This document shows, piece by piece, positions 29,859-41,757 of a stretch of DNA of 43,410 nt; the stretch's first letter is position 1, and each line of letters starts with the position of its first letter. The DNA is from Candidatus Nealsonbacteria bacterium (GTDB lineage Bacteria; Patescibacteriota; Minisyncoccia; Minisyncoccales; JAGGXC01), in assembly GCA_026396195.1 (NCBI GenBank), contig JAPLXH010000010.1, forward strand, positions 1 through 43,410. Reading direction: 5' to 3'. The notes beneath the pieces are model-generated. The model did no database searches, was not told the origin of the DNA, and saw only the letters and a list, made by a program, of their open reading frames with translations. Position numbers and translations under genes: made by a program.

Positions 29859-30461
29859 TTATTTTTGTTTTTCTAAATTACCGGCGAGCTCAAATGCTTT
29901 TTTATTAATTTCCAGAAATTTATCCGGCACTATCTCTTGCATAGCTTTCAAAATCGACGGTATCTTAAGCGGGATTAAATCCTGATAAATTGCTTTTCCC
30001 AGTAAATAAGTTCCGGCCAAAACCGAATTGTTAAATTCCTTTTGAGTAACTTCGGTCGCCGGGACAATCAATGTCTTTTTGGAAAAATCTTCCAAAGTCT
30101 TGGAAATCTTTTCAAGAGGTATTAATTCTTGTTCGATAATCGGAGTTAAAAATTTATTTATCAAAAATACGGTTCCGGTTTTTTTCGATGCATAAAAAGA
30201 TGCTTTTACGGCTTCCTGGGCTTCAAGGGCAATTATTAAATCAGCGCCTCCGGCTTTTACCAGTGGAGAATAGATTTTTTTACCGAATCTGACATGGGTT
30301 TCTACTGAACCTCCTCTCTGGGCCAATCCGTGAAGCTCTGAGGTTTTAGCCTCATAACCTTCTTCCTGAGCGGCTATGGCTAAAATTTTAGTCATAGTTA
30401 TTAATCCCTGACCTCCGACTCCGCAAATAACTATATTAAATTGATTTATTTTATTTTTCAT
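29859..30461 (-). CDS. iorB: Indolepyruvate ferredoxin oxidoreductase, beta subunit
   Basis: The gamma-type domain of 2-oxoacid:ferredoxin oxidoreductases is evident: NIVICGVGGQGLITMTKIL at the N-terminus, TSELHGLAQRGGSVETHVRFG in the middle and ADLIIALEAQEA. With 200 residues it has the usual IorB length. The complex oxidises arylpyruvates (transaminated Phe, Tyr, Trp) to acyl-CoA and reduces ferredoxin. It lies five bases after iorA and five before the nucleotidyltransferase gene. Confidence 0.92.
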   Translation of the reverse strand: MKNKINQFNIVICGVGGQGLITMTKILAIAAQEEGYEAKTSELHGLAQRGGSVETHVRFGKKIYSPLVKAGGADLIIALEAQEAVKASFYASKKTGTVFLINKFLTPIIEQELIPLEKISKTLEDFSKKTLIVPATEVTQKEFNNSVLAGTYLLGKAIYQDLIPLKIPSILKAMQEIVPDKFLEINKKAFELAGNLEKQK

Positions 30462-30466
30462 GCTGT

Positions 30467-32095
30467 TTATTTTTTAGCCACAAATACGCAAGGTCTCCGG
30501 GCGATAATCACAGAAACCTCTGTTTTATTTAAAAATTCTTTGATGGTATTTATCATTTCTTCTTGGTTTCCCTGGTCAACAATTTTCATATTTTTAACTC
30601 CCAGGGCTTTCACCACGTCTTCAATTTTTAAAGGCTCCCCTTCTTTGGGTGCTGCCGGATGGGGCTGATGCCCGGTCATGCCTGTTGTCTGGTTGTTCAT
30701 TATAATAATCAGAGGATTAGATTTGTTAAAAACGGTATTTATCAAAGCGGGAAGTCCGGCATGAAAAAAAGTAGAATCCCCGATAAAAGCAATCAATTTC
30801 TGATCGCTGACTTTTTTGATTCCATGGGCGATTCCAATGGAAGAACCCATGCAAGATAAATAATCCTGAAGATAATGTGGCGGATTGCCGGCCAGCATAT
30901 AACAACCGATGTCTCCTCCGAAAATCACCTCTTTTTCGTTAACTGCTTTTTTTACTGCCGAGAAAACCAGCCAATAAGGACAACCCGGACACAGCTGGGG
31001 TTTTCTTTTTAAAATCGGTGTTTTTGTTTTCACAACCGGATTTGAATATTTCTTGCCGGTAACCTTAGCCAAGGCTTCGATTACGTTTTCCGGCCTCAAT
31101 TCTCCAACCTCAGATATCAAATCCTTGCCGAAAATTTTAACTTTGGGATTCGCTCCTTTGGCTATTGCTTTTACTTCTCTTTCAAGAAAATTCTCCAATT
31201 CCTCAACTATTAATATTTTTTTAAATCCTTTAAGGAAATTTTTAATTTTCTTTTCAGGTAAGGGATAGAAAAATCCCAATTTTAAAATGGGCAGATTAAG
31301 ATTAAGTTCTTCCATCGCTTCCTTGATATAAAGATAAGAAACTCCGGAAGTAATAATCCCGATTGGAGATTTTTTATTGCCTTCTATCCGGTTAATTTTA
31401 CTTTTTTCGGCAAAATCTCTTATTTTTTCAATTTTTTCCAAAAGTTCGGCTTTCATTTCCAGAACCCTGGGAGGCAAAGTGACAAATTGATGGGGATTTT
31501 TTATAAAAGTTCCCCTAGGATTTGGCTTTTGAATTTCGCCAAAGGTTACTATTTGTTGCTGGTGGGAAACTCGAGTGGTCAATCTCAGTAAAACCGGAAT
31601 TTTAAATTTTTCGGAAAGCTCAAAAGCAAATTTGGTAAATTCCTTGCATTCCTGCGGGTCGGAAGGTTCTATTGTCGGAATATGAGCCAAATAAGAGTAG
31701 GGCCTTGTGTTAACCTCGGCTTGGGCCGAACTCCAGCAGGAAGCGTCGTCAGCAATCATTAGTACCGTGGGAGCCGGACTGCCGGTATAAACAAAAGGCA
31801 TTAAAGAATCAATGCAAACATTCAAGCCAAAATTTTTCATCGCCACTAAAGTTTTAACTCCGGAATAAGACGCCCCTACCCCGGCTTCCATGGCTACCTT
31901 TTCGTTGACAGAAAATTCAAAATAAACGCCGGCTTCTTTGTGGATTCTAAAAAAAATGTTTCCGATTTCCGAAGCCGGAGTTCCCGGATAAGTAGAAACA
32001 AAACTAACGCCTGATTCTAAGGCGCCTCTAATAACAGCTTCGTTGCCCAAAAGTAATTGTTTTTCTCCCTTTTGATTGGAAAGTATTTTTTCCAT
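30467..32095 (-). CDS. iorA: Indolepyruvate ferredoxin oxidoreductase, alpha subunit, short form
   Basis: IorA carries the thiamine diphosphate catalytic domains. The N-terminal Pyr domain has TYPGTPASEIGN and AMEAGVGASYSG. The PP domain has CPGCPYWLVFSA, GSSIGIAHGIKK and the TPP signature GDSTFFHAGLPALIN followed by NN. The protein ends at residue 542 with VIIARRPCVFVAKK. Known IorA proteins run to about 600-650 residues and end with two 4Fe-4S ferredoxin motifs. No CxxCxxCxxxC pattern is present here. Electrons must then leave by a separate protein. The frame ends normally, directly before iorB, so this is not a visible frameshift. Confidence 0.92.
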   Translation of the reverse strand: MEKILSNQKGEKQLLLGNEAVIRGALESGVSFVSTYPGTPASEIGNIFFRIHKEAGVYFEFSVNEKVAMEAGVGASYSGVKTLVAMKNFGLNVCIDSLMPFVYTGSPAPTVLMIADDASCWSSAQAEVNTRPYSYLAHIPTIEPSDPQECKEFTKFAFELSEKFKIPVLLRLTTRVSHQQQIVTFGEIQKPNPRGTFIKNPHQFVTLPPRVLEMKAELLEKIEKIRDFAEKSKINRIEGNKKSPIGIITSGVSYLYIKEAMEELNLNLPILKLGFFYPLPEKKIKNFLKGFKKILIVEELENFLEREVKAIAKGANPKVKIFGKDLISEVGELRPENVIEALAKVTGKKYSNPVVKTKTPILKRKPQLCPGCPYWLVFSAVKKAVNEKEVIFGGDIGCYMLAGNPPHYLQDYLSCMGSSIGIAHGIKKVSDQKLIAFIGDSTFFHAGLPALINTVFNKSNPLIIIMNNQTTGMTGHQPHPAAPKEGEPLKIEDVVKALGVKNMKIVDQGNQEEMINTIKEFLNKTEVSVIIARRPCVFVAKK

Positions 32096-39682: not shown

Positions 39683-40648
39683 TTATTTTTTTTCTGAAAT
39701 TAGTTTGTTTAATATTTTTTTAACGTTGTCCAGGCTGTCAGAGTCAATTATTGAAATAGCCAAGGCCTCTTTACCAATTTTTTTAAAATCACTTTTTATC
39801 CGCTCAACAACGGCTTTTGAAGCAATATCGCTTTTGCTGATAAAAATATATTCCGGCTTTTCTAAAAGCAACTTACTATGCGTTTCCAATTCAGCTCTTA
39901 CTGTTTTGTAGTCTGATATTGGGTCAGCAGAATCAACTGCAATAAAATGAAATAAAATTTTGGTTCTTTCAATATGACGCAAAAATTTTGTGCCAAGGCC
40001 CTTACCTTCAGACGCGCCTTCGATAAGCCCCGGAATATCAGCTAATATTAAATCATAATAAACTCCCAAATTAGGCTCCAGGGTTGTAAAGGGATAATTA
40101 GCAACCTTGCTTTTTGCATTGGTAAGCTCGTTCAATAAACTGGATTTACCAACATTCGGCAGACCTATGAACCCAACGTCGGCAATCATTTTCAATTCCA
40201 GCCTTACTTCAAAAGATTCTCCCGGTTTACCTTCTTCAAATTGCATCGGACTGGTGTTGGTTGATGACCTGAAAAGAAAATTTCCCTTTCCTCCTCTCCC
40301 CCCCTTGGCAAGAAGCTCTTTTTGTCTTATTTTATTAATTTCCATGTCTTCTCCTGTGTGCAAAATATGCACTACCGTACCTGCCGGCACATATAAAATT
40401 AAATCTTCTCCGCAATGTCCGTCATTCAGCTGCGACTTGCCGTTTTGCCCGTCTTTTGCCTTGTTTACTTTTTTAAAGCGAAACTGCCTCAAAGCTCCCA
40501 AATCAGAAACGCCTTCAATAAAAACACTGCCGCCGTTTCCGCCGTTGCCTCCTGTTGGTCCTTTAGACATTTTTGTCTTGCTAAAAGCCACAAGGCCTTT
40601 CCCGCCATGTCCAGCTATAACAGTTATTTTTACGTCGTCTATAAGCAT
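39683..40648 (-). CDS. obgE: GTPase ObgE/CgtA (short form)
   Basis: ObgE is a GTPase for 50S assembly. The glycine-rich Obg fold fills residues 1-155 (GHGGKGLVAF, GPTGGNGGNGG, GRGGKGN). The G domain starts with G1 GLPNVGKSS (162-170), then the switch with YPFTTLEP and G3 DIPGLIEGASEGKGLG. The variable OCT domain found in many Obg proteins is missing, so the 321-residue protein is the minimal form. It is 11 bases after the thioredoxin-FTR gene, so they probably share a transcript. Confidence 0.95.
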   Translation of the reverse strand: MLIDDVKITVIAGHGGKGLVAFSKTKMSKGPTGGNGGNGGSVFIEGVSDLGALRQFRFKKVNKAKDGQNGKSQLNDGHCGEDLILYVPAGTVVHILHTGEDMEINKIRQKELLAKGGRGGKGNFLFRSSTNTSPMQFEEGKPGESFEVRLELKMIADVGFIGLPNVGKSSLLNELTNAKSKVANYPFTTLEPNLGVYYDLILADIPGLIEGASEGKGLGTKFLRHIERTKILFHFIAVDSADPISDYKTVRAELETHSKLLLEKPEYIFISKSDIASKAVVERIKSDFKKIGKEALAISIIDSDSLDNVKKILNKLISEKK

Positions 40649-40659
40649 TTTGATTTAAG

Positions 40660-41274
40660 CTATTTTATAAATAATCCGCAAAAGCATCTGCCGTCTTTTG
40701 CAATCTCGTCTTTATGATAAGCGCAGGGGCAGATTTTTTTTGAATCTTCTTCTTTATTTTTACTTAATCTCCTGCAAGGGCAGTATTTTTTTCCGTTTTT
40801 CTTTTCATTTTCCAATAATCCATTAATTACTCTTTCAACGTTTTTCCTGTCGGGATTTAATTGAAAACCATTGTTTTGCGCATATTCCGAATATTCCTTA
40901 ATCATTTCTTCTATCTTTTTTTGTTTATCTTCTGAAGATTCAAACGACATATTATCCTGAATCATTTTTTCCAGCCATTCTTTAATTACGGACTCAGGCC
41001 TAAATCCGGTAAAAGCACTGATGGGCTTCCCACCCTTAAACAAGGTTACCATTGGAATTCTATCAACTTGAAACTTCTGAGCGTTAAACGGAATCTCGTC
41101 AACGTTGGCTTTTAGTAAAACAATCTTTTCCTCAAATTCCTTTTCTAATTTTTCTAAAACCGGGGCAATTAATGAGCATGGCTCACACCAAGTTGCATAA
41201 AAATCAACCAAAGCCAGCTTATCTGTTCTTTGAATTTCTTTTTCAAAATTTTTATCAGTTAAAGTAACAGGCAT
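40660..41274 (-). CDS. Thioredoxin fused to a ferredoxin:thioredoxin reductase catalytic-like domain
   Basis: Residues 1-105 are a thioredoxin with active site WCEPC (Cys-30, Cys-33; Glu replaces the usual Gly) and the cis-Pro in RIPMVTLF. A Lys/Glu-rich linker with a helix follows (about 106-160). The last 40 residues contain CPC (165-167), CPC (182-184) and CFC (197-199), the six-cysteine order of the FTR catalytic subunit, which binds a 4Fe-4S cluster and an active disulfide. Plant FTR has CHC at the last site; here it is CFC, and a His (187) lies elsewhere. Such a fusion would let electrons from ferredoxin reduce the tethered thioredoxin. The FTR variable subunit is not needed for the cluster and none is seen. 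Confidence 0.82.
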   Translation of the reverse strand: MPVTLTDKNFEKEIQRTDKLALVDFYATWCEPCSLIAPVLEKLEKEFEEKIVLLKANVDEIPFNAQKFQVDRIPMVTLFKGGKPISAFTGFRPESVIKEWLEKMIQDNMSFESSEDKQKKIEEMIKEYSEYAQNNGFQLNPDRKNVERVINGLLENEKKNGKKYCPCRRLSKNKEEDSKKICPCAYHKDEIAKDGRCFCGLFIK

Positions 41275-41475: not shown

Positions 41476-41757
41476 TTAATCAATTCCCCAAAATTTATTT
41501 TTACTAATTTCATCCGGCCCAATAATCTTTAATTGCAAAAAATCGTTAAAATCACTTATAAAAAAACCTGCGCCGAAATATAATATTAACAATCCCAGAA
41601 AATGCTTGCGAAAAATTAAACCTAAAATCATTAAAATTAAACCAAATATCCAATGATGGGGCGTGTCCATATAACCAAAAATTATATGACCCATTCTTCC
41701 AGTGGCGTATCCAATGAAAATTATTAAAATGTAAAATAAAATTTTAAAAAAATGCAT
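41476..41757 (-). CDS. Small membrane protein (93 residues)
   Basis: I do not recognise this protein. It has two or three hydrophobic helices (about 4-20, 32-50, 51-68), with a His-rich loop (MDTPHHW) between the first two and a polar C-terminal tail of about 20 residues. The frame starts nine bases after the deaminase stop, so it is likely co-translated. It may be a small membrane subunit, but nothing points to a partner. Confidence 0.5.
   Translation of the reverse strand: MHFFKILFYILIIFIGYATGRMGHIIFGYMDTPHHWIFGLILMILGLIFRKHFLGLLILYFGAGFFISDFNDFLQLKIIGPDEISKNKFWGID

Follow-up and report, generated by a model that had tools for sequence, protein, structure and literature searches.

A thioredoxin fused to an FTR-type domain in a Patescibacterium: a probable ferredoxin-fed thioredoxin with interchanging fused and separate forms

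How is a thioredoxin charged when it is built into one chain with an FTR-type catalytic domain? The question is raised by a gene in a 43,410-nucleotide stretch of contig JAPLXH010000010.1 (the window), from a Patescibacterium of the same order as 'Ca. Nealsonbacteria' whose genome comprises 792 kb in 13 contigs, with 98.7% completeness. The original prediction was of a self-contained ferredoxin-driven reductase, part of a thiol redox system standing in place of NADPH-thioredoxin reductase.

A thioredoxin and an FTR-type domain in one chain

The gene (40660..41274, minus strand, as are all the features of the locus given here) is an uninterrupted open reading frame from an ATG at 41274 to a stop at 40660, encoding 204 aa. 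Residues 3 to 102 (40969..41268) matched Pfam Thioredoxin PF00085 with an E value of 4.4e-27 and 94.5 to 95.8 bits (cut-off, 23.5), and the protein also scored 99.8 bits, above cut-off, against the thioredoxin model TIGR01068. The FTR/FDR-type catalytic domain spans residues 121 to 204 (40663..40914), of which residues 121 to 203 matched FeThRed_B PF02943 with an E value of 5.7e-23 and 81.4 to 81.7 bits (cut-off, 22). Within the thioredoxin domain, the WCEPC redox site occupies residues 29 to 33 (41176..41190) and contributes Cys30 and Cys33; the buried Asp24 and cis-Pro74 are also present. All six cysteines of the FTR domain were found, arranged as a first CPC (Cys165 and Cys167; 40774..40782), a second CPC (Cys182 and Cys184; 40723..40731), and a third motif, CFC (Cys197, Phe198, and Cys199; 40678..40686). 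The pairing of the two domains and the placement of the four motifs were thus as originally predicted, with both Pfam models well above cut-off. The fusion was the sole FTR-B match in the genome in a PF02943 search, and its thioredoxin is the only ordinary thioredoxin of the host.

An AF2 model of the whole chain, built with 46 aligned relatives, had a mean pLDDT of 96.2 and a pTM of 0.71; each domain is confidently modelled, whereas the placement of the domains relative to one another is only moderately certain at this pTM. Superposition of the N-terminal domain on solved thioredoxins, including those of E. coli and ancestral thioredoxins, gave Z scores of ∼20 and rmsd values of 1.1 to 1.6 Å (VIA-align). 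Because the fold search with the whole chain was filled by thioredoxins, the FTR domain was modelled alone (pLDDT 93.8). Its closest match was 7pwe (Z 12.9, rmsd 2.7 Å over 92 residues, 30% identity in the structural alignment), followed by 4tpu (Z 12.0, rmsd 1.8 Å over 85 residues) and the plant and cyanobacterial FTRs 1dj7, 2puk, and 7c3f (Z 8.5 to 9.2, with 9.1 for 1dj7), and the best unrelated structure after these reached a Z score of only 2.1. As modelled, the C-terminal domain has the FTR/FDR fold.

The principle of joining a redoxin to an FTR-type domain was already known from 7pwe, the glutaredoxin/FDR fusion of Desulfotalea psychrophila, in which, as here, a chain of ∼200 aa carries the redoxin N-terminal to a six-Cys FTR-type domain. 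The third motif of 7pwe is C-Y-C rather than CHC, and its redoxin is a glutaredoxin, whereas that of the window protein is a canonical WCEPC thioredoxin; the protein therefore falls outside the Grx-FDR type. The FDR of Methanosarcina acetivorans (4tpu) likewise shares the FTR-type catalytic domain outside photosynthesis and has a C-Y-C third motif, but it differs from the window protein in including a rubredoxin part and lacking a thioredoxin domain. Chloroplast and cyanobacterial FTRs (1dj7, 2puk, 7c3f) have the fold and the six cysteines in common with the window protein but differ in that the catalytic and variable subunits are distinct, the thioredoxins are proteins of their own, the third motif is CHC, and the ferredoxin is light driven. 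NTRC also combines a reductase and a thioredoxin in one chain; its reductase, however, is a flavin/NADPH enzyme of an unrelated family, and its thioredoxin is C-terminal (PMC9025218).

Fused, adjacent, and unlinked forms across the order

In a phylum-wide sample of 380 genomes, just 3 had FTR-B above cut-off, 2 of them in the order of the window; a class-wide sample gave 16 of 383, 12 from that order, and within the order itself the domain was found in 80 of 247 genomes. A total of 82 FTR loci were dissected, one of which, without a trx gene nearby, came from outside the order. An N-terminal thioredoxin was fused to the FTR domain at 31 of the 82 loci (26 genera, 13 families), with one further doubtful case, a spread that rules out chance or an assembly artefact as the source of the fusion. 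At 39 loci (22 genera) trx was a separate gene immediately upstream of the FTR gene, in the same orientation; at the remaining 11, 10 of them within the order, no trx gene was nearby. Most of the separate pairs overlapped or were less than 20 nt apart; spacings below 10 nt were frequent, and several pairs overlapped by 4 nt, as is typical when genes are coupled. Of four FTRs taken from the class outside this order, two likewise follow a trx gene. A contig scan with poor peptide stretches returned one relative, 'Candidatus Nealsonbacteria' JAPLXL010000006.1. The FTR domain had no match in plasmid, phage, or viral-contig collections; plasmid matches to the whole protein were mostly thioredoxins, with none annotated as FTR among the matches listed.

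The fused and separate forms were interleaved on a tree of the combined thioredoxin and FTR sequences (69 loci, 194 columns), a pattern that requires at least nine changes, seven of them forced by well-supported branches. The two forms have thus interchanged at least seven to nine times, as fusion or fission. In two species of a single genus of the window's family, a fused locus (L017) and a separate one with the genes 13 nt apart (L020) are close relatives. Distances among the thioredoxins and among the FTRs were correlated (Mantel r of 0.51, with 0 of 2,000 permutations as high).

The obgE GTPase gene (39683..40648), 11 nt downstream of the fusion, is a conserved neighbour, with Obg 69 to 74% identical after trx/ftr in related genomes. 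Upstream lies a small predicted membrane protein (41476..41757) without a Pfam match; in a related family it is likewise a conserved neighbour, ahead of trx/ftr and obg. At L060, where the FTR is 74% identical to that of the window, the same order of small membrane protein, trx/ftr, and obg was observed with trx and ftr as separate genes, so the joining or splitting took place in situ. The 201 nt upstream of the fusion showed no unusual RNA fold (z of -0.10), and the element AAAGCTACGG within it was not a repeat in the other FTR loci.

Flavin reductase, electron donor, and the third motif

Canonical thioredoxin (threshold, >60 bits) was detected in 49 of 50 FTR-positive genomes and in 4 of 25 FTR-negative ones (Fisher p of 1e-13, kinship ignored), a comparison made among related genomes and in part restating the physical linkage of the genes. 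It shows that the thioredoxin comes and goes with the FTR. The same pattern was seen within one genus, where the only species with the fusion has the thioredoxin and the four sampled species without an FTR lack it.

The flavin thioredoxin reductase (TrxR) was distributed quite differently, being matched in all 77 genomes tested, FTR positive and FTR negative alike; 74 matches were long (≥250 bits), 2 were fragments at a contig end, and 1 was weak, with none above the model cut-off. Since it is present with and without the FTR, it is not an alternative to it. Among the genomes with the TrxR were seven FTR-negative ones without any thioredoxin match, and the enzyme occurs throughout the order (for example, L006:1489-2403). 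In one FTR-positive genome (G426), where no canonical thioredoxin was found, a stand-alone FTR with a CHC motif adjoins the flavin TrxR gene (L013:510-1767); this pair may have a different partner.

A search for trxB in the host genome returned a TrxR of 304 aa (C13:11873-12766) scoring 318 bits against TIGR01292 (cut-off, 343) and 314 against AhpF; its best solved match was the C-terminal part of AhpF (E value of 2e-67), and it retains the CxxC and the dinucleotide-binding region. AhpF prefers NADH and is not known to have a free thioredoxin as its partner. At the site of the NADPH-enzyme motif VxxxHRRDxxRA (PMC5627308), the host enzyme has LEFSSKLKAD, resembling LEFAPEMKAD of AhpF. This AhpF-like motif makes NADH the likelier donor and suggests that the enzyme uses NADH rather than NADPH. 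The original claim that the FTR system takes the place of NADPH-thioredoxin reductase is ruled out by a full-length flavin TrxR in the genome and across the order. Only the replacement is refuted, since the enzyme found is not of the typical NADPH type and since flavin and ferredoxin routes are reported to coexist in Methanosarcina (PMC6262447), whose FDR occurs together with a flavin TrxR, as does the FTR domain in the host genome.

The presence of this enzyme allows that the thioredoxin domain is recharged mainly by the NADH-type TrxR, with the FTR domain auxiliary or downstream, for instance as a second input when the ferredoxin pool is reduced. The full-length enzyme with its intact CxxC and dinucleotide-binding region, its occurrence throughout the order, and the dual NTR and FDR systems described for Methanosarcina (PMC6262447) would all fit such an arrangement. 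We nevertheless consider it rather unlikely, as 21 of the 25 sampled FTR-negative genomes lack canonical thioredoxin although those searched for the TrxR have it, so that the thioredoxin tracks the FTR and not the TrxR. The nearest relative of the enzyme, AhpF, is moreover not known to serve a free thioredoxin.

A supply of ferredoxin for the FTR domain was sought in the host genome. A ferredoxin-motif pattern ending in CP matched only HydA and a stretch antisense to another open reading frame, but with the final P omitted the pattern identified a 74-aa, single-cluster [4Fe-4S] ferredoxin close to the solved Pyrococcus/Thermotoga-type ferredoxins and encoded at about 6.1 kb on C5, so that the donor envisaged in the original scheme does have a gene. 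The genome also encodes a HydA-type [FeFe] hydrogenase adjoining a NuoF-like protein. Genes resembling [FeFe] hydrogenases, counted here to include short proteins of uncertain function, were present in 46 of 80 FTR-positive and 36 of 167 FTR-negative genomes (46 with both, 34 with FTR only, 36 with hydrogenase only, 131 with neither); by genus, the association had an odds ratio of 3.5 (p of 0.0015). At seven loci of one genus (g432, which includes L060), an Fe-hydrogenase-like gene of ∼285 aa lies within about 3 kb of trx-ftr-obg. In another genome of the order, which also has a trx-ftr pair, the C terminus of an FTR-type domain is joined to a two-cluster ferredoxin (L012:1480-1992), and this arrangement points to ferredoxin as the FTR donor. 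The IorAB genes, named in the original prediction as the maker of reduced ferredoxin, are real (29859-32095 of the window). The IorA-like protein (30467-32095, 542 aa) has POR_N and TPP domains and no Fer4 domain; to cast IorAB as the ferredoxin source for the fusion protein would be guesswork. The FTR variable subunit (FeThRed_A) is reported to be exclusive to oxygenic phototrophs (PMC9025218).

It is also conceivable, though quite improbable, that the FTR domain reduces the thioredoxin domain with electrons from a donor other than ferredoxin, such as rubredoxin, flavodoxin, or the hydrogenase directly. In its favour, the Methanosarcina FDR includes a rubredoxin domain, the PDB list giving 4tpu under the name Rubredoxin, and a hydrogenase-like gene is found within a few kilobases of several FTR loci; against these stand the [4Fe-4S] ferredoxin gene of the host and the in-order FTR fused to a ferredoxin.

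The third motif was highlighted in the original prediction as a departure from FTR, CFC replacing the chloroplast-type CHC, with Phe198 at the position of the His. This view was not borne out, as CHC proved to be a minority state in the group and is missing from both solved microbial homologues, 4tpu and 7pwe, which carry Tyr at that position. The middle residue, read automatically in 78 FTRs, was L in 11, F in 10, I in 3, H in 2, C in 2, A in 1, and Y in 1 of the fused forms and H in 15, F in 14, Y in 11, L in 7, and S in 1 of the nonfused forms, and the tree requires at least 21 changes at this position. With the residue free to vary and Tyr in the solved homologues, CFC as a defect is ruled out, and Phe198 is ordinary for FTRs of this branch. 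Prakash et al. in 2018 reportedly proposed that this Tyr substitutes for the His. The cysteines themselves are strongly conserved: the CxxC was retained in all 69 thioredoxin domains compared (buried Asp24 and cis-Pro74 in 68 each), and the six-Cys spacing C.C-13/14-C.C-12-C.C, both active-site cysteines included, in 81 of 82 FTR domains. A second FTR copy in one genome (L068:1461-1772, genome G458) has lost one cluster-ligand Cys (YYC for CxC) and is likely degenerate. That the FTR-type domain is an iron-sulfur redox or oxygen sensor, with the state of its cluster gating the thioredoxin, rather than a catalytic reductase, is very improbable, for although Phe198 and the lost ligand of the L068 operon copy, by which activity is not always preserved, could be read in that way, the fixed six-Cys spacing and the Tyr of two solved relatives, both titled disulfide reductases, argue against it.

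A proposed ferredoxin-to-thioredoxin path and its implications

The reading that we prefer, with a probability of roughly three in four, is that the gene encodes a ferredoxin-fed thioredoxin, in which the FTR domain draws on ferredoxin and reduces the thioredoxin to which it is fused. It rests on the identity of the two domains, the full set of cysteines, the modelled FTR/FDR fold, the two-gene pair in relatives, and the repeated switching between fused and separate forms, and also on the finding that the thioredoxin co-occurs with the FTR and not with the flavin TrxR. The [4Fe-4S] ferredoxin and [FeFe] hydrogenase of the genome, the L012 fusion, and the co-occurrence of FTR and hydrogenase support the same reading. 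Against it stand the flavin TrxR of the genome, which could reduce the same thioredoxin domain; the 10 in-order FTRs that lack an adjacent trx gene, some of which may serve other partners; the FTR-positive genome in which no canonical thioredoxin was found (G426); and the only moderate certainty of the interdomain arrangement.

In Synechocystis FTR, the first and third CxC each supply one cluster ligand and one active-site Cys, and the second supplies two ligands. The roles of the cysteines in the fusion were assigned by homology to that enzyme. The cluster itself, ferredoxin as the electron source, the course of the electrons, the choice between intra- and inter-chain transfer, and the targets are all inferred. 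Reduced ferredoxin would give electrons singly to a [4Fe-4S] cluster held by Cys165, Cys182, Cys184, and Cys197; the cluster would then reduce the adjacent active-site disulfide Cys167-Cys199, which in turn would reduce the disulfide between Cys30 and Cys33, and the thioredoxin domain would then pass the electrons to cellular target proteins. Ribonucleotide reductase is a candidate target by analogy, since in Methanosarcina barkeri an FDR is reported to feed a class III ribonucleotide reductase (Wei 2015, cited by PMC9176816 and PMC6262447). That an FTR-type enzyme can reduce a thioredoxin is supported by the Methanosarcina FDR, which is reported to reduce a separate one, MaTrx5 (PMC6262447).

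A broader picture can be offered only tentatively. This lineage of small-genome bacteria may have its only canonical thioredoxin permanently tethered to an iron-sulfur reductase, tying thiol reduction to the ferredoxin (and hydrogen) pool, with the universal flavin TrxR serving another partner and fusion and fission tuning the same two-protein machine.

Nothing on the thioredoxin version of the fusion, its repeated joining and splitting, or its distribution through a candidate-phyla order was found in the open-access literature searched, and all three appear to be new. The series of fused, operon, unlinked, and ferredoxin-fused forms amounts to a set of natural constructs for asking whether the catalytic His is needed, given L, F, H, Y, I, C, A, and S at its position, and the same series could show whether transfer to the thioredoxin occurs within or between chains. 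The finding also raises the puzzle of what role the flavin TrxR plays in genomes without a canonical thioredoxin. Members of the class, Nealsonbacteria among them, have been reported attached to methanogens (PMC10936435). The proposed path would extend disulfide reduction driven by ferredoxin to candidate-phyla bacteria whose genomes are mostly below 1 Mb.
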